Shown here piece after piece: positions 3,300 through 63,400 of a DNA stretch of 64,000 bases (the stretch's first letter is position 1; each line of letters begins with the position of its first letter). Origin of the DNA: a virus. The position numbers and the translations under genes are program-made. The notes beneath the pieces are model-generated. The model did no database searches, was not told where the DNA came from, and saw nothing but the letters and a program-made list of their open reading frames with translations. The stretch lies in the IMG/VR virus record IMGVR_UViG_3300042482_001698, positions 1-64,000 of that record, one strand, 5' to 3'.

Positions 3300-3587
3300 A
3301 TGGCTTGTAAGGTTGAACTTCGTGATTTGCCCTTAAATCCTAGTTGGTATGAGAGGGAAATAGCATTTAAGAAAATGTTCACAGCTTTTAAAAAGCAAGT
3401 GGCAGAGGCTGGAATTTTACATGATTATAAAGAAAGGGAGTATTATGAAACTCCCGGTCAGTTGCGTCGAAGAAAAAATCGTGAAGCTCAGAATGTTCGT
3501 CTCAAGGAAAAACTTCGTGAAAATTTTCCTGAACGAAGAAAGCCCAAAAAGAGTGATAACAAGAAGGCAAAAGCCAAAGGTGAATAA
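3300..3587 (+). CDS. rpsU: Ribosomal protein bS21
   Basis: 95 residues. The core FKKQVAEAGIL (about 30-40), then REYYETPGQLRRRKNREA, matches the conserved helix and basic stretch of bS21, the small-subunit protein next to the anti-Shine-Dalgarno end of 16S rRNA. Bacterial bS21 is usually 55-70 residues; this one has a long Lys/Arg tail. AAAGGA sits upstream of the ATG. It overlaps the ribbon-helix-helix gene by 1 nt, which in turn overlaps a deformylase. Phage bS21 is established in large phages; a role in favouring phage mRNA is inferred. Confidence 0.85.
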   Translation: MACKVELRDLPLNPSWYEREIAFKKMFTAFKKQVAEAGILHDYKEREYYETPGQLRRRKNREAQNVRLKEKLRENFPERRKPKKSDNKKAKAKGE

Positions 3588-3847
3588 TGACAGCTAAGAA
3601 GGGTACGATCATGAGCCTGAGTGTTGATCCAGACATTCAGGAGAAAATGAAGTTAGTTGCAAAGAAAAGAAATATTAGTGTTTCTAAATTAATCAGGGAT
3701 TTGGTTGAAAAGAATTTACCAGAAATTGACGAAGATGTCGATGTTGTTGTATTGAAAATTCCCGTTTCTTACAGGTCTAATCCTGATACACTGAAGCAGT
3801 GGCTTGGTTTGAGGATAGATGCTATTATAAAGGCATTGACTAGCTAA
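3587..3847 (+). CDS. Ribbon-helix-helix (CopG-like) DNA-binding protein
   Basis: 86 residues. Residues about 8-45 show the pattern of a ribbon-helix-helix repressor: a short strand (TIMSLSVDPDIQEKM), then VAKKRNISVSKLIRDLVEKN. The C-terminal half is a separate small domain. It lies between the bS21 and peptide deformylase genes with 1-nt overlaps on both sides, so it is co-translated with them and could autoregulate that operon. The target operator is unknown. Confidence 0.7.
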   Translation: MTAKKGTIMSLSVDPDIQEKMKLVAKKRNISVSKLIRDLVEKNLPEIDEDVDVVVLKIPVSYRSNPDTLKQWLGLRIDAIIKALTS

Positions 3848-4347
3848 TGATTAATATTAATGAACCGCTGAAGATTGTTGCTGAAAGTCAGATTCCAAAG
3901 GCAGAAAACATGCCTATTGATAATCTCATGAATATTTTTCGTCTTTGCAATAAGATGGAAAAGATTTGTGATGAAAATATTGGGATTGGTCTTTCGGCTG
4001 TACAAATCGGCATTCCGTGGAATCTGTTCATTGTAAAAAGGGGCAGATCCTACGAATATTACGTTAATTGCGAATACTCAGGATTGGGTGCTACAAGAAG
4101 GTCAATCGAAGGTTGCTTGTCCATTAAGAATGAAGATGGGAGCATGAGGCGATTTGAAGTTGAGAGATTTGAGAAAATTATGTTAAAGGGCAAGCAGCTT
4201 CGAGTTTCTGGGACGCCATCTTTGGTTCTTGATGATATTAATCGAGAAGAAAATAATTTAATGGCAATAGTATTTCAGCACGAGATTGATCATGGAAAAC
4301 AAATATTAATAAGTGATATAGGCAAAGAAATTGAATTGATGGAGTGA
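3847..4347 (+). CDS. def: Peptide deformylase
   Basis: Removes the N-formyl group from nascent proteins using a metal ion. All three family motifs are intact: GIGLSAVQIG at 46-55, EGCLS at 88-92 (metal-binding Cys90) and HEIDH at 145-149 (catalytic Glu146 between the metal-binding histidines). The 166-residue length is normal. Its ATG overlaps the stop of the ribbon-helix-helix gene (TAATG). Phage deformylases are known from marine phages; here it shares an operon with bS21, which suggests a translation-processing cassette. Confidence 0.92.
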   Translation: MININEPLKIVAESQIPKAENMPIDNLMNIFRLCNKMEKICDENIGIGLSAVQIGIPWNLFIVKRGRSYEYYVNCEYSGLGATRRSIEGCLSIKNEDGSMRRFEVERFEKIMLKGKQLRVSGTPSLVLDDINREENNLMAIVFQHEIDHGKQILISDIGKEIELME

Positions 4348-7667: not shown

Positions 7668-8492
7668 ATGGCATGTTCATCTACAGGAATCGGTTGTAGT
7701 TCTCCTCCTTCTGGCTGTCCAGACGAATATGGATGTATTGGTGGGTTATGCCCAGATTTTACTATTCGTAGACACGATACTAAGCCAGCATTTAAGGTTA
7801 AAATAGAAGATTGTGATGGTCCTTTGGATTTAACTGATCTTGTCTTAGAAGCCACTATGTGGGCCAAGGGCAAGATCAAAGTTAACCTAGATCAGGACGA
7901 CACTGTTATTGGCTTTGCTGATAACATTGGATTTGGTCAGATTATGGTTGGTGATGTTATTATTATGAATCAGGCTAGATTGCCTGAAAAAATGTTGGTT
8001 CTTGGTTTTGATGAAGTGAATAAATTGATTAATGTGCAGCGAGGCTATCATGGAACGCCTATTCAAACTTGGAAACGTGGCACAATTGTAAGAATCATAA
8101 AATTTTCTAATGCTGTAGCAACAAGTGAAATGGTTTATCAAGATATAATTAATATCGATGGCACTACTTCAAAAGATGTTTTGGTCAACAGTTATTTTGT
8201 TTATGAGTGGTCGTCTGGTGATACTTGTTTGCCCGGATGTTATTATTTGGAATTTAAGTTGTTGAAAATGGTTGTTGCTCCAATGTTAGCGATACAGTCA
8301 ACTGTGCCAAGCAATCAAATTCCAAGTAATTTATTGCCAGATGATATTGTTCCAAGTTTTACTGATTCGAGTTTAATACCATCAAATTTCTCTTGTGGAA
8401 TGGATGCGGCGATAGAATGGGTTAGAAGGTTCCCAGTTGATTCAGAAGGTTTTTATATTAAAATAGTTGATTCAATTACAATTGATGATTGA
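7668..8492 (+). CDS. Baseplate/fibre-like virion protein
   Basis: 274 residues. A Cys-rich N-terminus (six Cys in the first 28 residues) precedes an Ig-like domain (TKPAFKVKIEDCDGPLDLTD) reminiscent of the N-terminal domain of baseplate upper proteins. A central region with NVQRGYHGTPIQTW is typical of phage structural proteins. The C-terminal part has a P-S-N/P-D repeat. No signal peptide. A virion role is inferred from these patterns. Confidence 0.5.
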   Translation: MACSSTGIGCSSPPSGCPDEYGCIGGLCPDFTIRRHDTKPAFKVKIEDCDGPLDLTDLVLEATMWAKGKIKVNLDQDDTVIGFADNIGFGQIMVGDVIIMNQARLPEKMLVLGFDEVNKLINVQRGYHGTPIQTWKRGTIVRIIKFSNAVATSEMVYQDIINIDGTTSKDVLVNSYFVYEWSSGDTCLPGCYYLEFKLLKMVVAPMLAIQSTVPSNQIPSNLLPDDIVPSFTDSSLIPSNFSCGMDAAIEWVRRFPVDSEGFYIKIVDSITIDD

Positions 8493-8558
8493 CACGGCTT
8501 ATTATTGGTAGTATTTTTCTATAGGTTTATTTTTGTGGGGGCTAACAGGTTTCAAACG

Positions 8559-9113
8559 ATGAATATGAATAATGGAAATAAGTTCAACAAGGAAAGTCGT
8601 GATGATCAAAACAGAATTAATTGGCAGATAAGAGTACCACAAGTCAGAGTTGTCCATGACGATGAACAGCTTGGCATAATGTCAACAGAACAGGCAAGAA
8701 AAATTGCAATGGATCAAGGTCTTGATCTTGTTGAAATCGCTTCAACTGCAAAGCCACCAGTTTGTAGAATAATGGATTACGGTCGTTATAAATACGAACA
8801 AAACTTAAAGAAAAAAGAAACTGCTAAAAAACAAAGAGAATCACAGGCTCAAATAAAAGAAATTAGATTGCGTCCTGCAATTGCCAATCATGATGTAGAA
8901 ACAAAAGTCAATCAAGCCAAAAAGTTTTTAGAAGAAGGATGTAAAGTTCAATTTAATCTTCAATTTAAAGGTTATCGTGAATTAGGCCATAAAGAGCAAG
9001 GTTTTAGCGTGATGAAAAAGATCGTTGAACTCGTAGAGCAGTTTGGTATTGTTGAAAAGCAACCAACTATGGAAGGCAATAGAATTATATGCTTTTTTAC
9101 GCCCAAGGCCTGA
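8559..9113 (+). CDS. infC: Translation initiation factor IF-3
   Basis: 184 residues from ATG 8559. In-frame extension upstream (GTG 8535) adds only hydrophobic residues unlike the family. The N-terminal domain (QVRVVHDDEQLGIM) is followed by the IF-3 signature CRIMDYGRYKYE, the basic linker KKKETAKKQR and the C-terminal domain (IKEIRLRPAIANHD...FKGYRELGH). Full-length for IF-3. The protein binds 30S subunits and checks initiator-tRNA pairing. The bacterial infC-rpmI-rplT context is absent. The last base of the stop is the first base of the next ATG. Confidence 0.92.
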   Translation: MNMNNGNKFNKESRDDQNRINWQIRVPQVRVVHDDEQLGIMSTEQARKIAMDQGLDLVEIASTAKPPVCRIMDYGRYKYEQNLKKKETAKKQRESQAQIKEIRLRPAIANHDVETKVNQAKKFLEEGCKVQFNLQFKGYRELGHKEQGFSVMKKIVELVEQFGIVEKQPTMEGNRIICFFTPKA

Positions 9114-10330
9114 TGGATAATTTCATGAAAAACGAAATTCTCAATTGTAAAGTCTTTGATGTTCAGAATGAGTTTAATCGTCGTTTGTATTATAACCAAC
9201 AAAAAATTATTCCATCAAATCCTCCCCTTATTCTCAGAATAATTCATGATGCAAGTCAAGAGTTGCTTGAATTTGCATTTGGGCATTTTGGTAAAAAATT
9301 GGGTTATCTTGCCAGTATTCTTGACATGACACATCCAGATTTAGTTTCAATTTTTGATGGTAGTTTTTCCGATGATCAAGAGTTTTCAAAACAATGTGTT
9401 CAGTTTCTTGCTATGGCAGAATATGCTAAAAACAATGATTTAAATCATATTTTTCCACTTCTTGGATCGCTTCTTATTAAAGAATCTTTAGACAAAAATA
9501 TTGTTCGTAAAATTGATTCTATCAGTTGCAATAAATCTTATGCAAGAATGATATTGAATTCTGATGAACGTGAAGCTATTAGATTTTCTAAAAAAATGCA
9601 AACCATTGATTTGCAAGCTTTTTACAAGAAAGGCGAAGAAGCATGGAATTCTCAGCCTGATAATTTCAAACAATTCATTCGTTATGATGCGGCTTACTTG
9701 CGTGAATTAAAGCAAGCAGAGAGAAAAATGAAGCGTTATCAGGAGTTGGGCTGTCATAGTCTTGCTTCAGAAATATGTAAAAGTATTGATTTGTTTCGTG
9801 AAAACATGGAACAAGCTTATTATGGTTTTAACCGTATAACAATGACCAGTGCCGCAGTAATTTTGGCAAAATCATTAGGATATTCATTTAATCCTTCTTA
9901 CCAATTGTCGGTAGGCGGTCATGTAATGCGTGTGGAAGCACAAGTAACTATAAATCGTTCTTTCTTTACTGATTATTATTTTGATTCATCTTTGGTTGTT
10001 GACGCAAATTATCATTATGATCCAAAGGTTTATCCATTTCATGAATTGAAAGAAATAGCTTCTCCTGAAGTTATGCATACAATTAATATGTTGGAGAAGT
10101 TTCCAGAAGCAAACGATAAGCCAATATTTGATCATTTTGGAGTAATTGTTCCAACAATTGCTTATAAAAATAAAATGTTCAATAATGAAAATGGTATTTT
10201 GCAAGATTATGAAAATTTAGAAGATGCCACTAGGGATTTGGATAAGATATTCATTAAGAAAAAGTTTTTTTATCCAATCATTGTTGGTGAAAAAGATGGT
10301 AAGTGTTTCTTTATTTGCTATTGGACTTGA
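9113..10330 (+). CDS. Hypothetical protein, large
   Basis: 405 residues from ATG 9113, which overlaps the IF-3 stop by 1 nt (TGATG) and so is probably coupled to it. It appears soluble, mostly helical in the first 240 residues (ELKQAERKMKRYQEL) and alpha/beta afterwards. No motif recognised. Coupling with IF-3 makes it worth testing for a translation role, but nothing in the sequence shows one. Confidence 0.65.
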   Translation: MDNFMKNEILNCKVFDVQNEFNRRLYYNQQKIIPSNPPLILRIIHDASQELLEFAFGHFGKKLGYLASILDMTHPDLVSIFDGSFSDDQEFSKQCVQFLAMAEYAKNNDLNHIFPLLGSLLIKESLDKNIVRKIDSISCNKSYARMILNSDEREAIRFSKKMQTIDLQAFYKKGEEAWNSQPDNFKQFIRYDAAYLRELKQAERKMKRYQELGCHSLASEICKSIDLFRENMEQAYYGFNRITMTSAAVILAKSLGYSFNPSYQLSVGGHVMRVEAQVTINRSFFTDYYFDSSLVVDANYHYDPKVYPFHELKEIASPEVMHTINMLEKFPEANDKPIFDHFGVIVPTIAYKNKMFNNENGILQDYENLEDATRDLDKIFIKKKFFYPIIVGEKDGKCFFICYWT

Positions 10331-10339
10331 GGTTTTGCA

Positions 10340-10591
10340 ATGCTTTATAATTTAACAAAAGAAGAACTTCTTGAATTTGCACATATGATTTATGAGCAAT
10401 CTGTGAATGGCTACCTAGATCTGAAAGAAGGTACTTGTCACAAGTTGTTGGTAAATTTTCTAACAAACAAGAAAACTTCTATCCCAGATACTAATGTAAA
10501 CATGAGTACCAATTTTGTGGACACAAATCAGATTTTTAACTCTGATGTTTTCACAGTAACGGAAAGTTTTATCATCAATCAAACTCATTGA
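10340..10591 (+). CDS. Hypothetical protein
   Basis: 83 residues with GAGG upstream. It opens with LTKEELLEFAHMIYEQ, a helical pattern, and ends in an Asn/Thr-rich stretch. It lies directly before the GroES-like gene. Function unknown. Confidence 0.55.
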   Translation: MLYNLTKEELLEFAHMIYEQSVNGYLDLKEGTCHKLLVNFLTNKKTSIPDTNVNMSTNFVDTNQIFNSDVFTVTESFIINQTH

Positions 10592-10615: not shown

Positions 10616-10987
10616 ATGTCGAAGAGTAAGATTCTTACACCTATGGGTTCAATTTATGATTCCACCATTATTGGCAGTGGAGCAAAAGTTCCTAAAATCA
10701 AATCTGTTAAGCCAACTGGCTCACAGGTTCTTATTGAATTTTTGACATCTCAGGAAATGCTTGGGACAAGTCTGGCTGTTAATGAAAAAACAGATTTGAA
10801 AGTTCCTTTGCAAGGTTATGTTCGTTCTGTAGGTCCTAACTTCAAGTCATCAGATTATGGCTTTAATATAGGCGACAGAGTCACTGTTTCAGGTCCCGGC
10901 ATTCATGTCCCTAATTGGGACAACATTCATCGTGATCGATTCTTGATGGAGCCTTCTTCAATCAAAGGTGTGATAATAGAAGAATGA
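10616..10987 (+). CDS. groES: GroES-like co-chaperonin
   Basis: 123 residues. The region KPTGSQVLIEFL (about 35-46), a mobile-loop-like segment (GTSLAVNEKTDLKVPLQG), VRSVGPN and FNIGDRVTV reproduce the Cpn10 order. The conserved ending is FLMEPSSIKGVI. Longer than bacterial GroES (about 97 residues) because of an N-terminal extension. It would cap a host GroEL-type chamber, as T4 Gp31 does, for folding phage proteins. It overlaps dnaJ by 4 nt. Confidence 0.8.
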   Translation: MSKSKILTPMGSIYDSTIIGSGAKVPKIKSVKPTGSQVLIEFLTSQEMLGTSLAVNEKTDLKVPLQGYVRSVGPNFKSSDYGFNIGDRVTVSGPGIHVPNWDNIHRDRFLMEPSSIKGVIIEE

Positions 10988-12051
10988 AAGACCCTTATGC
11001 CGTTCTAGGCGTTCCTAAAAATGCAACAAAAGATGATATAGTCAGGGCATACCGTAAGGGTGCCCTGAAGCATCATCCTGATAAAAATCCCGGCGATTCT
11101 GAAGCCGATGTTAGATTTCGTGAAATTCAAGAATCTTATGATATTTTAATTAATGATAATAAACGTGCCGAATATGATAGCGTTGGACCCTCAATGCATT
11201 TCCGCAGAAGAGGATTTGAAGGCGGTTCGTTTAATGGTTCCTTTGGCGACGTAATGAATGATTTTTTTCAGCACAGTACATTTCGTGGAAGAAATCTTAC
11301 AATCAGATTGGAAATTGATCTCCAAGAAGTCTATACAGGTTGCGATAAAGATTTAATTGTCAAAATGAAAAATACTTGTACCACTTGCAAAGGTCAAGGT
11401 CAGGTGAGCAATGAAGCTTGTGGAAATTGTAATGGAGAAGGTTTCACCAAAGTCAATAACGCTCCTTTTGAATTTAGAACAAATTGCTCTGTGTGCAATG
11501 GTCTTGGAAAAATAAATCCAATACTATGCGTTGATTGCAATGGTACGGGATTGCTCTCTGGCTACAAAGAAAAGAATATAAAAATTCAAATTCCATGTGG
11601 CATTGAAAGTGGAATGAATTTGAAAATTAGTGGTCAAGGCGAAGAATCGCTTCGTGGTGGAAAGTCTGGTGACTTAATTGTTCATGTTTTGGTTCGTGAA
11701 CATGAATGTTTTGATCGTGATGGAATTGATTTGTCGATTGATGTTCCAGTGAGTTATAGCCAATTGGTTTTAGGGTGTGATCTTTTGGTTCCTACCATTA
11801 CAGATGAAATGATTACGGTAAAAATACCAGAAGGAACTCAAAGTCACGCCAAATTCAAATTGCGAGGCAGAGGATTGCAACTGCCCAATGGAATATTGGG
11901 AGACATGTATGTTTCCGTAAAATTAGAAGTACCTAAGAAAATATCAAATGAATATATGCAATCAATAAAAAAAATCGAAGAATATGAAAAAACAACTATC
12001 GGTGAGCGTAGAGAAAAATGGATTAAAATTATCAATAAAAAACGTAAATAA
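10984..12051 (+). CDS. dnaJ: DnaJ (Hsp40) co-chaperone, type I
   Basis: 355 residues: J domain 1-66 with HPD at 31-33, a Gly/Phe-rich linker (about 77-100), and four zinc CxxCxGxG repeats at C132, C146, C168 and C182. Substrate-binding domains follow, with IPCGIESGMNLKISGQGE and LRGRGLQLPNG. All elements needed to stimulate DnaK are present. No DnaK gene is in the window, so a host Hsp70 is the likely partner. It shares a 4-nt overlap (ATGA) with groES. Confidence 0.93.
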   Translation: MKDPYAVLGVPKNATKDDIVRAYRKGALKHHPDKNPGDSEADVRFREIQESYDILINDNKRAEYDSVGPSMHFRRRGFEGGSFNGSFGDVMNDFFQHSTFRGRNLTIRLEIDLQEVYTGCDKDLIVKMKNTCTTCKGQGQVSNEACGNCNGEGFTKVNNAPFEFRTNCSVCNGLGKINPILCVDCNGTGLLSGYKEKNIKIQIPCGIESGMNLKISGQGEESLRGGKSGDLIVHVLVREHECFDRDGIDLSIDVPVSYSQLVLGCDLLVPTITDEMITVKIPEGTQSHAKFKLRGRGLQLPNGILGDMYVSVKLEVPKKISNEYMQSIKKIEEYEKTTIGERREKWIKIINKKRK

Positions 12052-21712: not shown

Positions 21713-21748
21713 TAATCTTCAAAAAATTGCTTGCTTGTGCCGATCAAA

Positions 21749-22789
21749 ATGGCTATGATCCTGTGCATTCGGAGAAGTGAAGTGGATCAATTAAAATTGA
21801 AATACAAAAAATTTGATAGTCTCCGAAGATTCGGAGTCGAAATAGAGGTAGGCAGTGAAGTAAAAAAGAAAGTTGTGCAAACGGCTATTATGGCATCATC
21901 TAAATATGATGCTCATGTAAGCCGATACTCTCTTTCTACGAACAATCGTTACTGGCACATTAAAGATGATGCAACGTGTGGGATCAAGGGTCGTAAAGGT
22001 CCTAAAGGCGTAGAAATAGCTTCTTTTGTTGGCCATGGAATTAATGATATTAATCATATATCTTTCATTGCTTCCAAGTTGTCAGAAATAGGATGTCGTG
22101 TTAATGAAAATTGCGGTCTTCATGTTCATGCGGAAGTCAGCGATCTTTCTGTTGAGCAAGTGAGTATTTTCATGGCTCATTGGATAAAATTAGAAAAAAT
22201 TTTTAGTTTAATTTTACCGATGCGTAGAAATAAAAGCGAATATTGTAAGTTCATATTTCCAATTGATGTTGAAAAAAACGAAAATAATATTTGTCGGGAC
22301 AAGTTTTACTCACCTGATAATTTATGGAGTATGCTTTCTCCGAAAAATTTGAGTTATTACGACAACGATGATCGTCGATACAATTTAAATCTTGTCAATT
22401 TAGTTCGAGCAATTAAGTATAATCACAATAATAGAAAAACAATTGAATTGAGATGGCCAGAAGGAACTCTGGACCCTCGTGACATTCGTTGTTGGGTAAA
22501 ATTGTTTTTGATTTTTATAGAAAATTGTAAAAATAAAAAAATGCCTACCAATTTAAAATCTTGCAATTTAAAAGAGGCGCTTGATTATTTCGGATTATTG
22601 AATACGAACAATAATTTTTCAATCATGAGTGCTTCAATTCAAGAAACTAAAACATGGTTTCTTGAAAGAATTATTGATTATAACCCTGATGCAATCATTT
22701 TTCACAAAGATGAAAAATTGGTTAAAATAGCGGATGAGGCAAGATTGATCTTGAATGAAATGTGGAGGCCAATTCGTGTTTATTCTTGA
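21749..22789 (+). CDS. Amidoligase-family enzyme (ATP-grasp-like)
   Basis: 346 residues from ATG 21749; ATG 21755 is equally possible and neither has a good ribosome-binding site. Key amidoligase blocks are FGVEIEVG near the start, CGLHVHAEVSDLS in the middle, and RTIELRWPEGTLDP-like residues (KTIELRWPEGT) after NLVRAIKYN. These match glutamine-synthetase-like COOH-NH2 ligases that join amino groups to carboxylates. Substrate unknown; cell wall or protein tagging are possibilities. A sigma-factor gene follows with its own promoter. Confidence 0.75.
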   Translation: MAMILCIRRSEVDQLKLKYKKFDSLRRFGVEIEVGSEVKKKVVQTAIMASSKYDAHVSRYSLSTNNRYWHIKDDATCGIKGRKGPKGVEIASFVGHGINDINHISFIASKLSEIGCRVNENCGLHVHAEVSDLSVEQVSIFMAHWIKLEKIFSLILPMRRNKSEYCKFIFPIDVEKNENNICRDKFYSPDNLWSMLSPKNLSYYDNDDRRYNLNLVNLVRAIKYNHNNRKTIELRWPEGTLDPRDIRCWVKLFLIFIENCKNKKMPTNLKSCNLKEALDYFGLLNTNNNFSIMSASIQETKTWFLERIIDYNPDAIIFHKDEKLVKIADEARLILNEMWRPIRVYS

Positions 22790-41169: not shown

Positions 41170-41436
41170 ATGAAAAAAATTGAATTAATGAAAATTTATA
41201 GTGAAGATTTTCAAAAAGAAGTCACAATGGTTTCTGTTGATGGAGAGGTTTTTGATTGGGGTATAGACCCTAATGCATTAGTTCAAGCGAAAGCAACTAT
41301 TTCTAATCATAATGAATTATCTGAGTCTATAGTTTTATCTATGATAGATCATTTTCTTGAATGTTTTTCAGAATTTATTGGAAGAGATATAAATCTTGAA
41401 GAATTCAATAATGCTGTGAGAGAGGGAAAATTATAA
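41170..41436 (+). CDS. Hypothetical protein
   Basis: 88 residues, acidic, beginning KKIELMKIYSEDFQ, with helical C-terminus. No ribosome-binding site is seen. A TTTACA at 41112 with TATAAT 15 nt away may be its promoter. Its stop overlaps the SET-domain ATG by 1 nt (TAATG), so they are coupled. Confidence 0.6.
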   Translation: MKKIELMKIYSEDFQKEVTMVSVDGEVFDWGIDPNALVQAKATISNHNELSESIVLSMIDHFLECFSEFIGRDINLEEFNNAVREGKL

Positions 41437-41969
41437 TGATTATTTTTGAAGAAAATGACGATAGATTTTACATCAAGGAATCAACCATAAAGACGGCGGG
41501 GAAAGGTCTTTTTGCTAAAAGAAAAATTGAAAAAGATGAATATTTGCCAATTAGTGGCATTATGGTCAAAAGAAATTCTATTGCTGATGAATGCACATAT
41601 TTTTTCAATTCATATAAATTCGCAGCTAATATGAAGAAAAAAGGTGATTTGGTTGATATTGGAGAATATGTTATTGTTCCTCTTGGCTATGCTGGAATTG
41701 TCAATCATATTGACAGTTTAACATTACAAGGTGTTGAAATTCGTTATTGTGGTGATCAATATCCGCAGAAAACTCCACATGCTGGCAAAGCTGTTTATTG
41801 GTTTTTACGAGACATTGAAAAGGATGAGGAAATATTTGGTAATTATGGACAAGGATGGAATAATGTTTTAGATTGGGTTAATGAAGTTCACAATAAAACT
41901 GGCTATGCTAAAAAGTCTTGGCAAGAATTTTTAGATTTTGATTTGTACAATATGAAAGAATTAATTTAG
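41436..41969 (+). CDS. SET-domain protein
   Basis: 177 residues. Opening strand and turn FYIKESTIKTAGKGLFAKRKIEKDEYL (only its ends are quoted as family marks: KGLFAKRKI, KDEYL). Then VPLGYAGIVNHID, where NH is the SAM-binding pair, and the end of the fold WFLRDIEKDEEIFGNYGQGW, with GNYG in place of the usual D-Y. This is the SET fold of protein lysine methyltransferases. Phage and algal-virus SET proteins are known. Target unknown. Confidence 0.75.
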   Translation: MIIFEENDDRFYIKESTIKTAGKGLFAKRKIEKDEYLPISGIMVKRNSIADECTYFFNSYKFAANMKKKGDLVDIGEYVIVPLGYAGIVNHIDSLTLQGVEIRYCGDQYPQKTPHAGKAVYWFLRDIEKDEEIFGNYGQGWNNVLDWVNEVHNKTGYAKKSWQEFLDFDLYNMKELI

Positions 41970-46662: not shown

Positions 46663-46908
46663 TCAATTTGATTGATCATCATCATCAGATGTAATTGCTG
46701 AAATTTGGCCAGTTGGCGCACGAGAATCAATCTCTACGACATTTGTTTCCAGTTCAGAACGAAGTACAGTTACCTCTTTCTGAGCCTGAATACCCAATCT
46801 GACTTTGTTCCTGTTGTCAATTCTTACAACCGTGATCCTTATGTCTTCTTTTAGACCCGGAACTTTTAGGATGATTTCTTCGTCCTTCTTTCGACTTAGC
46901 ACTAGCAT
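46663..46908 (-). CDS. csrA: CsrA-family translational regulator
   Basis: 81 residues from ATG 46908, fixed by AAAGGA upstream and the canonical N-terminus MLVLSRKKDEEIIL. IRITVVRIDNRNKVRLGIQA matches the CsrA beta strands, and the Arg in VRLGI is conserved. The C-terminus is longer and acidic (SDDDDQSN). CsrA dimers bind GGA-containing hairpins near ribosome-binding sites. A phage copy could control host or phage mRNAs; possible targets include the GGA-bearing leader repeats here, which is inference. Confidence 0.9.
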   Translation of the reverse strand: MLVLSRKKDEEIILKVPGLKEDIRITVVRIDNRNKVRLGIQAQKEVTVLRSELETNVVEIDSRAPTGQISAITSDDDDQSN

Positions 46909-47011
46909 TTTACGTCCTTTCGTTGCTTTCCATGTGTTGTCGTAGACCATATTAATTGAGTCGATCTTTTGAAATTTTTTGTTCTTTTTAAAATATTTCC
47001 CAAAATAGGGC

Positions 47012-47040
47012 TTTACAACCAAAAAGGATTTATATATTAA
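47012..47040 (+). promoter_or_regulatory. Promoter TTTACA-N17-TATTAA
   Basis: CTTTACA ending at 47017, a 17-nt spacer and TATTAA at 47035-47040, 50 nt upstream of the AT-hook gene and divergent from csrA. Confidence 0.55.
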
Positions 47041-57892: not shown

Positions 57893-58342
57893 ATGAAAGC
57901 AAATCAAGAGTATTGGCGTAGCCCACAACCTCATCCACTTAATCCTAATACGAATGATGCAAAAATATATAAAGAATATATGCTTGATGGATCTACATTG
58001 CTTCTTGGATGCACAAAAAAGCTGGTTTCCATATCAGATTATCAGATGGATTTAGATCCTTGGCTCAAAGGTCCAAATGTCATAAAGGGCGATTGGATAG
58101 AGAACAATCAAGATTTTGTCAATATTATCGGCGATGGAGTTATGAATCTCACCAAAGATTTAGCAAATGGTCTTTTGAAAATGGCAAAAAAACATTCTAA
58201 AAACTTAGTCGTCAGAAGCTTCAAAAGAAAAGAATCTTGGATGAGAGTTGCAGATTATTTTCCCGAAGCTAAAGATTTTAAGATAACTCCATATATCTCA
58301 AGACAACTAATTGATTATAATTTTTATGTTTGGAGATTTTGA
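57893..58342 (+). CDS. Methyltransferase-like protein
   Basis: 149 residues. STLLLGCTKKLVSISDYQMD followed by VIKGDW and FVNIIGDGVMNLT recalls a class I SAM-fold protein with short motifs; the usual Gly-rich loop is reduced to LGCT. C-terminal KNLVVRSFKRKESW. Its stop overlaps the next ATG by 1 nt (TGATG), so it is translationally linked to the adenylating enzyme. Fold call tentative. Confidence 0.5.
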   Translation: MKANQEYWRSPQPHPLNPNTNDAKIYKEYMLDGSTLLLGCTKKLVSISDYQMDLDPWLKGPNVIKGDWIENNQDFVNIIGDGVMNLTKDLANGLLKMAKKHSKNLVVRSFKRKESWMRVADYFPEAKDFKITPYISRQLIDYNFYVWRF

Positions 58343-59376
58343 TGCATAATCCGAATGTTGATGTTAAGAATATAATAGACAAATTTGAAAAAAGCCAATG
58401 GATTTACAGCCCCAATTTTGATTCAATTAAACATTTCCCTGTTATTACGAGAGAAGAATTAAGAAATATGCCAATGGAAAAAGGCATGTTTGAATGTAGC
58501 ACTTCAGGCTCAACAGGCGAATCTCTTAAAGTACAAAAAAGTTATGCAGATTATGTCTGGTACACGGCTACGAACGTAAGGGAAATGATCTGGAGGAAAT
58601 GGGATTTCACAAAGAATATTGCCGTGATAAGGCCTGATTCAAAAATAAGAGACTTGAGTGGGTGGGGCATTCCACAAAACATTGCTCCAATACAAGGGAA
58701 TACATATCAAATAAATTTTGCACCTATTTCTCAAATCCAATCTTGGCTTGAGGAAAAGAATCCTCACTACATTCACAGTAGGCCATCTATTCTTGCTGAA
58801 CTAGATTTGACTAAAATACCAAACCTTATTGATGTTAAAAGCACAGGTGAACTCGGTGGGACAATGTTCAGCAGCGAAGAGTGCGGAACGATTTCAATTC
58901 AATGTCCTGACAATCCTTCCGTCCATCATGTGATGGAAAACCAAATCGTCGAAGTAGACGAATCTGGAAACATGATCATTACGACTATGACAAACAAATA
59001 CGTCAAAAGATATAAAAATGGCGATTGCATTGAGCTTGGAGAATGTAATTGTGGTAGAAAATTACAAACAATCAAAAAAATAAATGGTCGTGTAAGAAAT
59101 ATGTTCGTTCTGCCAAATGGTGACAAAAAGTGGCCATTGATTGGAAGTAAAGTCTATTATGAACAATTTGGCATTAAAAGGTATAAAGTAATTCAAAAAT
59201 CAATCGAAGAATTAGAGCTTCATATTATTGCGGAAAATCTTGGAGAAAGAGAAAAAGAGCTTCAAGCCGTTGTTAAAAAATGGCTTGAAGCAGAAGTAAA
59301 TGTGACAATTAAATATGTTGAATCATTCCCTAATTATAAGCATGAAGAATTCATCAGCTTAGTCAACTATCTCTAA
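58342..59376 (+). CDS. PaaK/CapK-like adenylate-forming enzyme
   Basis: 344 residues from ATG 58342. The phosphate-binding loop is ECSTSGSTGESLKVQKS at about 49-65. Later RYKNGDCIELGECNCGRKLQ contains the aromatic-GD motif and a zinc-like C-x-C near 232-245, and KINGRVRNMFVLPNG is the hinge region. These are phenylacetate-CoA-ligase-family features. It is shorter than PaaK (about 430), losing part of the N-terminal region. Acid substrate unknown. Very unusual for a phage. Convergent overlap of 18 nt with the next gene. Confidence 0.75.
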   Translation: MHNPNVDVKNIIDKFEKSQWIYSPNFDSIKHFPVITREELRNMPMEKGMFECSTSGSTGESLKVQKSYADYVWYTATNVREMIWRKWDFTKNIAVIRPDSKIRDLSGWGIPQNIAPIQGNTYQINFAPISQIQSWLEEKNPHYIHSRPSILAELDLTKIPNLIDVKSTGELGGTMFSSEECGTISIQCPDNPSVHHVMENQIVEVDESGNMIITTMTNKYVKRYKNGDCIELGECNCGRKLQTIKKINGRVRNMFVLPNGDKKWPLIGSKVYYEQFGIKRYKVIQKSIEELELHIIAENLGEREKELQAVVKKWLEAEVNVTIKYVESFPNYKHEEFISLVNYL

Positions 59377-60363
59377 TATTTTTGGCAATTTACCAATATA
59401 TTGCTGACTGCACTTAATTGCTTTTTGACCATACAAAGTAAATGTATCACCATGCTTCAAAGGCTTATCGACATAAGGAACATAAACACTTTGATTTTCA
59501 AGATTAAGAATAATATGTTCTAAACTGTCTGGAAGATTTTGACTGACTATAGCCGTGTAATCTATAACATTAACTCTAAATGTAATTGTTGGATTAAGAT
59601 AGGTTAGCCTGCTTGGTTCAACAATAAGGTCTAAAAAAGCCTGAGCAATAATTTGCCGCTCAGAATTGTCCATGTATTCGTTTTCGTCTTTTGCAATTAG
59701 TAGAAAATAAATTTCATCAATTCCAGTTAAATTTTGCAAACAATGATCATCATGCTCATTGTCGGCATCATAAAGATGAACAATTCCACTTCCGTTTCCG
59801 GGTACAAAAATAAAATGATTGATAGATGGATCGTTAGAGTCATAAACTTGCTTATTAAAACATGTAAATTGGCGACCTTTACTTGTCAAAGTAAACACAT
59901 TAACTTCATAATCACCATTGCCATCAGCGCCAATATCTCCTGTGATTGAAAATTCTTCAATATCAATACCAGTTGCCGCCATCACAAACATGTCTGGATA
60001 CATATTTGTAAAATATTGGCTCCCAGCACCAAAATATGAACTGCCATCGGCAATTATTCCATCCATGGGAGGATCAGTGTAATCTCCACTTCCTTCTGCA
60101 ACTGCAACAGTATGAGTGTATGGAATGGAATTAGCACGGGCAGTATCATTATCTACACCATCATTATCCATATTGGCATAAAGCTGAGTTAGATTTGTAT
60201 TTAGGCAATTTGCATCATCATACATGTCACCGCCACCATCAGAAATGTTGGTGTTAACTCCATCATCTTCTGGTTCGTCGCTGAAATAATATGGATTGAT
60301 AATGTTTTCAGTGATTGTTTGATATCCAAGATTCAATCTTGTCAAAACTGCTTCAATACCCAT
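59359..60363 (-). CDS. Modular virion-like protein with shared C-terminal module
   Basis: 334 residues with AAGGA upstream. The N-terminal 255 residues are acidic, Asn/Asp/Gly-rich and beta-structured (DGGGDMYDDANCLNT, FIFVPGNGSGIVHLYD). Residues about 260-334 are the shared module (ITFRVNVIDYTAIVSQNLP ... YIGKLPKILEI), nearly identical to that of the neighbouring RCC1 protein. Likely a tail-tip or decoration protein. Confidence 0.65.
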   Translation of the reverse strand: MGIEAVLTRLNLGYQTITENIINPYYFSDEPEDDGVNTNISDGGGDMYDDANCLNTNLTQLYANMDNDGVDNDTARANSIPYTHTVAVAEGSGDYTDPPMDGIIADGSSYFGAGSQYFTNMYPDMFVMAATGIDIEEFSITGDIGADGNGDYEVNVFTLTSKGRQFTCFNKQVYDSNDPSINHFIFVPGNGSGIVHLYDADNEHDDHCLQNLTGIDEIYFLLIAKDENEYMDNSERQIIAQAFLDLIVEPSRLTYLNPTITFRVNVIDYTAIVSQNLPDSLEHIILNLENQSVYVPYVDKPLKHGDTFTLYGQKAIKCSQQYIGKLPKILEIVD

Positions 60364-60436: not shown

Positions 60437-61753
60437 TTAGTTAACTAGCTCTAGTATTTTCGGTAACTTGCCAATATACTGCTGATAACACTTAATTGCT
60501 TTTTGTCCATACAAGGTAAATGTATCGCCATGCTTCAAAGGTTTATCAACATAAGAAACATAAACAGTTTGATTTTCAAGATTAAGAACAATATGTTCTA
60601 TTCTATCTGGAAGATTCTGACTGACTATAGCCGTGTAATCTATAACATTAACTCTAAATGTGTAAGCTGGTAATGGATAATTTGTACTTGTATCATCCGT
60701 TATGGCCATAGTACTGCCGTAGCCTCCGGCTGAAACGAATTTCCAATTTTTGTCTGAAGCAATTTGAATTGGTGAAGAACTGTCATTTTCAGTTCCGTTT
60801 CCTAATTTACCGCTGTAGTTGTCTCCCCATACCCATAAAGTACCATTAGACTTTAATGCGACAACACTACTGGTTCCAGCAGAAGCACTTGCCCAATTAG
60901 AAGCATTTCCGACTTGAACTGGAGACGATACTATTGCTGTATATCCGTTCCCTAATGCTCCGCTGTCTCCCTCGCCCCATGCCCAGAGAGTGCCATTTTC
61001 TTTCAGTGCTACTGCATTATATAAACTGACAGAAACACTTGACCAATTACTTAGACTTCCAACTTGAGCAGGCGAAGACAAACTAATGGTATCGCCGTTT
61101 CCCAAAATTCCAAAATTTCCTTCTCCCCAAGACCAAAGAGTTCCATTGTTTTTTATGGCAAAAGAAGATAAAGCTGAAGCAGAAATTTGCTTCCAATCAT
61201 TATCTGTTGTTATTTGAACTGGGGAAGAATATGTAAATGTGTCATTTTGACCCAATTGTCCACTACTACCTTCTCCCCATCCCCAAAGAGTTCCATCTGT
61301 TTTGATTGCTAATGCATGGGCACCTGTATTTGAAATTTGATCCCAATTAGAATCACTTCCAACCTGCACAGGAGATGATCTAGCATCGGTATCATTTAAT
61401 CCAAGAATACCAGAATAATTAACTCCCCATGTCCACAAAGTGCCATCTGATCTAATAGCAGAATTATTGAAAAATCCTGCTGAAATTTCTTTCCATGAAA
61501 AACTTCCTATTTGAACTGGAGATGAATAACTAATGTTTTCGTTATTTCCAATTGATCCTCCTGAGCCTTCGCCCCAAGACCAAAGTGTTCCATTTGTTTT
61601 AATGCCAAGAGTATGAGTGGAACTGGTAGAAACTTTTGCCCAAACGCCTCCAGATAGTATGTTTTGAACTGGAGAAGATCTGTTAATAACAGTTCCATCT
61701 CCTAATACACCAGAATTGTTAATCCCCCACGCCCAAAGCTCATTGCCAGCCAT
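60437..61753 (-). CDS. RCC1-repeat (seven-bladed propeller) protein with shared module
   Basis: 438 residues with AAAGGAG upstream. Seven RCC1 repeats of about 50 residues, each with W-[AWSTGV]-W-G-x-x-x-x-G-x-L/I-G, for example LWAWGEGDSGALGNG; seven copies make a closed propeller. They fill about residues 1-350. The last 75 residues are the shared module (YTFRVNVIDYTAIVSQNLP). No signal peptide. Likely a receptor-binding or adhesion protein carried by the virion. Confidence 0.85.
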   Translation of the reverse strand: MAGNELWAWGINNSGVLGDGTVINRSSPVQNILSGGVWAKVSTSSTHTLGIKTNGTLWSWGEGSGGSIGNNENISYSSPVQIGSFSWKEISAGFFNNSAIRSDGTLWTWGVNYSGILGLNDTDARSSPVQVGSDSNWDQISNTGAHALAIKTDGTLWGWGEGSSGQLGQNDTFTYSSPVQITTDNDWKQISASALSSFAIKNNGTLWSWGEGNFGILGNGDTISLSSPAQVGSLSNWSSVSVSLYNAVALKENGTLWAWGEGDSGALGNGYTAIVSSPVQVGNASNWASASAGTSSVVALKSNGTLWVWGDNYSGKLGNGTENDSSSPIQIASDKNWKFVSAGGYGSTMAITDDTSTNYPLPAYTFRVNVIDYTAIVSQNLPDRIEHIVLNLENQTVYVSYVDKPLKHGDTFTLYGQKAIKCYQQYIGKLPKILELVN

Positions 61754-62497: not shown

Positions 62498-63400
62498 ATG
62501 AATAAGTCTGATTTTTCTCACGAAAAAATTAAATTCTTTCATCATGTTAGTTTTGATGACATTAATCAACGTATGAAAATAATGGGAATAATTCCCGAAC
62601 ACAAAGAATTCCAGAAAAGTCTAAACAAAGTTCAAAAAATCAAGACTGATAAAATAAACCCAGAAATGCTTCCATGTTATCAATCTGCTCTCCTCAACTT
62701 CCCACAAGAACAACATCTTTTCAGAAAACTTAATTTTTTGAAATATCGTGCAAAGAATTTATTTGCTAATACAGACGTAAAATACCCAGAAGCGAAAAAA
62801 AAACTTGCAAATCATATTCATCGAAAATCTCTCGAAGTCAGAAACCAAATTGCTGAATGCAATTTCCGTTTAGCAACGCAAATCATGAAACATAAAAATG
62901 CAATGCAAGATGGCAACAGCACTGAACAAATGCTAAGTGATGCTTATTTCGATGTTTTGAAAGCTGTTGATTACTTCAACTGGACACTTGGCCACAGGTT
63001 TTCAACATATGCTACTTGGGTAGTGAAAAAGAATTTCTTTCGAGACGCTAAGACCAAAATGAATCAGGCTGAAAAAGTTGCCTACCTCGATGATTCCCGT
63101 GCGGAAATGATCGAGGACAGAGGAACTGGAGAAGCTGATGAAAAGAACCATGAGTCGAGACAATGTCTAATTAAACGACTGATTGGAATGCTGGTTCGTG
63201 AGAATATTGGCACAGACAGAGTGAGACAGGCATATGTGCTTGAAAAATACTTCGGGGTTAACGGTCGTGATAAAATGACGCTTGAACAAATCAGCGAAGA
63301 AGTAGGAGTCACGAAAGAAAGAGTCCGACAGTTAAAAGAAAAAGGCTTAGAATGGATTAGGGAAAAGGTGCTGGAATTAGGACTTTCTATTGATGATTAG
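62498..63400 (+). CDS. RNA polymerase sigma factor (sigma-70 family)
   Basis: 300 residues, GAGG upstream. An N-terminal 115-residue extension without a clear domain, region 2 (DAYFDVLKAVDYFNWTLGHRF, then STYATWVVKKNFFRDA), and region 4 with a helix-turn-helix (MTLEQISEEVGVTKERVRQL). Regions 2 and 4 are complete. Distinct from the compact factor at 22854. It likely directs a temporal class of phage genes. Confidence 0.85.
   Translation: MNKSDFSHEKIKFFHHVSFDDINQRMKIMGIIPEHKEFQKSLNKVQKIKTDKINPEMLPCYQSALLNFPQEQHLFRKLNFLKYRAKNLFANTDVKYPEAKKKLANHIHRKSLEVRNQIAECNFRLATQIMKHKNAMQDGNSTEQMLSDAYFDVLKAVDYFNWTLGHRFSTYATWVVKKNFFRDAKTKMNQAEKVAYLDDSRAEMIEDRGTGEADEKNHESRQCLIKRLIGMLVRENIGTDRVRQAYVLEKYFGVNGRDKMTLEQISEEVGVTKERVRQLKEKGLEWIREKVLELGLSIDD

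Follow-up and report, generated by a model that had tools for sequence, protein, structure and literature searches.

What does a protein of unrecognised family do when its gene lies directly behind a phage gene for IF-3, and does it act together with IF-3 on the ribosomes of the host? We addressed this question in a stretch of 64,000 nucleotides (hereafter referred to as the window) from an IMG/VR record of 83.7 kb (IMGVR_UViG_3300042482_001698). According to the original prediction, the window encodes a full-length IF-3 coupled to a protein of 405 residues (hereafter, the partner), and IF-3, in the company of bS21, deformylase, CsrA and tRNAs, points to an attempt to change the selection of start codons or messages on host ribosomes, in which the partner may take part. 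The features relevant to this proposal are as follows.

3300..3587, plus strand: bS21 homologue (PF01165, 1.8e-12; TIGR00030 above cut-off)
3587..3847, plus strand: ribbon-helix-helix-like (RHH) small protein between S21 and deformylase (PF19891, 9e-7; weak RHH matches)
3847..4347, plus strand: peptide deformylase homologue (PF01327, 1.6e-17; below the NCBIfam curated cut-offs)
7668..8492, plus strand: upstream neighbour of 274 aa, conserved in the clade, with a weak tail-protein resemblance (PHROG 6284 tail, E 0.007)
8489..8517, plus strand: promoter-like match before IF-3, TTGACA-17-TATTTT (consensus match only)
8559..9113, plus strand: IF-3 (infC-like), 184 aa (PF05198, PF00707 and TIGR00168 above cut-off; PDB sequence matches)
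9113..10330, plus strand: partner ORF, 405 codons if read from the ATG that overlaps the IF-3 stop; no match to a known family or fold, relatives in a further 26 phages, purifying selection
9125..9127, plus strand: alternative partner start ATG, in-frame, 11 nt past the IF-3 stop; recurs in relatives
10340..10591, plus strand: downstream neighbour of 83 aa without a Pfam family, present in part of the clade
10616..10987, plus strand: Cpn10-like protein (PF00166, E 0.0049, below cut-off), conserved in place
10984..12051, plus strand: DnaJ-like chaperone (NCBIfam DnaJ models, best 1.1e-91)
46663-47022, minus strand: CsrA (TIGR00202, 8.6e-12, below its curated cut-off)

IF-3 and the translation genes of the window

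Both Pfam domains of IF-3 were matched nearly in their entirety, IF3_N (PF05198) with 2.8e-30 over positions 1-69 of 70 and IF3_C (PF00707) with 2.4e-28 over positions 2-86 of 86. The infC model of NCBIfam, TIGR00168, scored 181.5 bits, about three times its cut-off of 60, and 11 solved IF-3 proteins were matched among the PDB sequences (best 2.6e-39, up to 138 bits). The motif at the border of the N-domain and the linker, CRIMDYGRYKYE, aligns to CRIMDYGKFLYE of E. coli. When aligned with the solved bacterial IF-3s, the window IF-3 has two additional residues in the linker and, in common with its closer relatives, one extra residue just ahead of the conserved Arg-Glu in the C-domain. As judged from its sequence, the window IF-3 is a complete and intact two-domain protein of the bacterial type, in agreement with the prediction that it is full-length and keeps its signature.

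The predicted company of IF-3 was confirmed in part. The matches to bS21 and deformylase are real, CsrA stays below its curated cut-off, and the window contains a single tRNA, tRNA-Arg(TCT), rather than several; an Rfam scan of the window returned nothing besides tRNA. IF-3, bS21 and deformylase thus occur together in one large phage, as in the translation-takeover gene set of huge phages. Al-Shayeb et al. (2020; PMC7162821) list IF1, IF3, rpS21 and peptide deformylase as such takeover genes. That huge phages encode IF-3, S21 and deformylase is already published, as is the takeover idea. Of 60 starts, picked by hand and almost all ATG, 36 have a Shine-Dalgarno-like motif in front of them, as compared with 10% of random positions. 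Because this signal is ordinary, we rejected the idea of unusual message leaders, and the predicted change in start-codon or message selection gained no support; altered start-codon selection is speculation.

TTGAC and TTTTTnTATAGG stretches at 8485-8530 of the window are common to L005 and, in part, to L007, L008 and L020, and they possibly represent a phage promoter. A consensus scan for promoters and terminators gave no promoter-like match on the plus strand between IF-3 and the partner.

The window also encodes a putative amidoligase (21731-22789; PF12224, 3.5e-18), a SET-domain protein (41436-41969; PF00856, 1.3e-5), a sigma-70-like factor (62498-63400) in which regions 2 and 4 are present and, on the minus strand, an RCC1-repeat propeller protein (60437-61753; PF00415, 9.7e-59, seven stretches), whose C-terminal end is similar to the end of the adjoining ORF 59359-60363. 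The product of 58330-59376 looks by eye like an AMP-forming enzyme of the CoA-ligase type, and Pfam gave no match to it.

The partner gene and its product

The junction of the two genes reads GCCTGATGG and contains the overlap TGATG, in which the ATG at 9113 uses the last base of the TGA stop codon. The predicted overlap is therefore literally present in the window; that the overlapping start is the one used is not certain. It has no counterpart in L007, L012 and L026, which possess an in-frame ATG 7-11 nt past the IF-3 stop, and it is the sole start candidate in L025. An ATG 11 nt past the IF-3 stop occurs in the window and in L005, L007, L010, L011, L013, L020 and L026, and TGGAG or TGGAA often precedes an ATG at this distance. 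Since several relatives are devoid of an overlapping start codon, the true start of the partner may be the ATG at 9125 and not that at 9113. Depending on the start, the partner may have 405 (9113) or 401 (9125) amino acids. A candidate start lies between -56 and +50 nt from the IF-3 stop in 27 of 27 phages and between -4 and +16 nt in 22 of them.

The partner had no significant match in Pfam, PHROGs, NCBIfam or the PDB sequences. Family scans with the partner alone and with 5 to 24 relatives, as well as PDB profile searches, gave matches at the level of chance. An alignment of 24 partner sequences contains nine invariant residues and two conserved blocks, YGFNRI...ILAK and, toward the C-terminus, FDHF.VIVP...GEKDGKCYFI.YW. 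Codon comparison with L005 yielded a dN/dS of about 0.09, with dS near saturation; this low ratio marks the partner as a real protein, subject to purifying selection.

Structure prediction, which had been proposed as a check on the partner, gave confident AlphaFold models without identifying a fold. The window partner was modelled with a pLDDT of 86 and a pTM of 0.82, and the 310-aa relative from L015 with a pLDDT of 89 and a pTM of 0.80. In these models the N-terminal half is helical, and the C-terminal half is mixed alpha/beta. Foldseek found no match for the window partner (best E 0.7 in PDB and 0.5 in BFVD) or for the L015 relative (best E 1.1 in PDB), and no RNA-binding or ribosome-related fold was recognised in these searches. 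The partner apparently represents an undescribed, phage-restricted protein family.

Association of the partner with IF-3 in related phages

Related phages were collected by searches with the partner, IF-3 and the upstream 274-aa protein, and removal of duplicates left 32 distinct phages, including the window and the metagenomic phage record LR756511.1 (595 kb). All 32 have IF-3 within a conserved neighbourhood of S21, deformylase, IF-3, Cpn10 and DnaJ, and those with a long enough locus share, with few gaps, the order S21, deformylase, 274-aa gene, IF-3, Cpn10, DnaJ. Every locus found with the 274-aa protein, a search independent of IF-3 and the partner, carries IF-3 if it has room downstream.

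With an iterated profile, 27 of the 32 phages proved to have the partner, in each case immediately behind IF-3. The two genes were never separated by another one, although genes have been gained or lost on both flanks of the pair. On the upstream side, 15 of the 32 phages have a thiamine-pyrophosphate (TPP) enzyme between the 274-aa gene and IF-3; some of these 15 have an Fe-S carrier, an aldehyde dehydrogenase and a sugar dehydrogenase downstream of the pair. The window and its close relatives have none of these enzymes. That the flanking genes change while the pair stays together favours a joint role of IF-3 and the partner. Adjacency alone is weak evidence, because other gene junctions nearby, g977-g2134 and Cpn10-DnaJ among them, show about the same stability as that of IF-3 and the partner.

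The TPP enzyme upstream of IF-3 and/or the aldehyde dehydrogenase downstream of the partner occur in L001, L011, L013, L014, L015, L016, L048 and L052, and some of these loci also have an A-type Fe-S carrier and a UDP-glucose/GDP-mannose dehydrogenase, which make up a metabolic cluster around IF-3. The TPP enzyme/aldehyde dehydrogenase cluster has the following coordinates in two loci.

L001: 13310-14959 and 20367-21872
L011: 5792-7423 and 9921-11435

We rejected the partner as a member of this set; it persists in phages without the TPP enzyme and aldehyde dehydrogenase genes, and they persist without it.

If the two proteins function together, they should be conserved together, and this held in one direction. 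The partner was never seen without IF-3 among the related phages, whereas in five of the 32 IF-3 stands without the partner and is followed by other genes: L046, L053 (the same phage as L054), L078, L088 and L089. Searches of their whole records, which may be incomplete, did not reveal the partner elsewhere. IF-3 also occurs without the partner in many other phages, and three other huge phages (L027-L029) have no partner-like gene beside IF-3. The pairing is thus one-way and not obligate for both. A pattern search, within the limits of its sensitivity, gave no relative of the partner in 84,980 species genomes of bacteria and archaea, and none was found in plasmids; LR756511.1 was the only record with one in the phage collection. 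In a mirror-tree analysis, the partial distance correlation of the partner was 0.44 with IF-3, 0.37 with DnaJ, 0.21 with deformylase, 0.13 with S21 and 0.12 with the 274-aa gene. IF-3 is the best correlate of the partner, not clearly above DnaJ.

We compared this arrangement with those described for other phages. The combination of IF-3, bS21 and deformylase is shared with the huge phages of Al-Shayeb et al., and LR756511.1 has both the gene order of the window and a relative of the partner; the passages of that paper on these genes name IF3 and no conserved downstream partner. Chen et al. (2022; PMC9723584) described phage bS21 in a fixed neighbourhood, as in the window, and proposed that it redirects host ribosomes late in infection. 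In their phages bS21 adjoins the genes for capsid and terminase, whereas here the terminase matches are more than 100 kb away and IF-3 and deformylase are nearby. Phage IF-3 has been suggested to serve in ribosome rescue or in the support of phage translation (Iyer et al. 2021; PMC7824862). The jumbo phages Munch, XaC1, Atu_ph07 and Phosso encode IF-3 like the window, but IF-3 is followed by ClpS in Munch and XaC1 and preceded by a Clp ATPase in Atu_ph07 and Phosso, and no relative of the partner was found in these four. The IF-3-ClpS adaptor pair recurs at 3983-5053 of L033 (Salmonella phage Munch) and 4983-6090 of L032 (Xanthomonas phage XaC1).

Possible roles of the partner

Our leading guess is a joint role of the partner with IF-3, to which we give somewhat less than an even chance. 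It may be that IF-3 and the partner form a small co-expressed unit, and that the partner tunes or uses the IF-3/30S step on host ribosomes; this, too, we rate a little below even. The two genes would be co-transcribed in this clade of huge phages. During infection, and along with the phage bS21 and deformylase, the phage IF-3 would act on the 30S subunits of the host and would supplement or compete with the host IF-3. The partner, translated from the message of IF-3, would most likely be an accessory phage protein that serves to tune or use this step, and the two proteins might make physical or functional contact.

We regard as unlikely the more specific proposal that the partner is a phage-specific initiation or ribosome-associated factor of new fold, which would cooperate with the phage IF-3 on the host 30S subunit to favour phage messages. 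The phage-specific, non-essential protein gp014 of phiKZ (gp335 of Churi) acts with host ribosomes in jumbo phages (PMC11849849). We cite it as a precedent only, claiming no homology to the partner; unlike the partner, it has no link to a phage IF-3.

A function unrelated to IF-3, in host takeover, defence or metabolism, comes next after the joint role and is a serious possibility, although we would not call it probable. The partner would then merely share a transcript with IF-3, in a late or middle operon whose gene order changes slowly. The colinearity of the whole neighbourhood, the equal stability of several unrelated junctions, the five relatives that keep IF-3 alone and the failure to find a translation-related fold are all consistent with this explanation, as is the mixture of neighbours, which includes a possible tail protein, the TPP enzyme, the aldehyde dehydrogenase and chaperones. 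It accounts less readily for the observation that in all 27 phages the partner has kept its place right behind IF-3 while the flanking neighbours come and go.

A virion or assembly function of the partner, with its place behind IF-3 due to chance, is improbable. The pair is adjoined upstream by the possible tail gene (274 aa, weak PHROG matches), and phage bS21 genes often lie beside structural genes and are often expressed late (PMC9723584). We found no structural-protein homology in the partner, however, and five relatives do without it, unlike what is expected of a core virion part. Moreover, in seven large relatives or fragments the pair is separated by more than 100 kb from terminase or sheath matches, although all records are linear assemblies in which true distances may differ; at such distances, the pair does not appear to belong to the core virion module.

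Regulation of IF-3 itself by the partner, as an inhibitor or through control of their own operon rather than host initiation, is very improbable: the one-way dependence of the partner on IF-3 and the tight spacing, which allows translational coupling, agree with it, but the same pattern is compatible with the other readings and no fold supports it.

Components of the translation machinery are encoded in huge phages, and we found no test in the literature of how a phage IF-3 is used. The relatives that naturally keep IF-3 without the partner provide a ready comparison. With no recognised fold and a place directly behind the phage IF-3 over large evolutionary distances, the partner qualifies as a concrete candidate for a second component.
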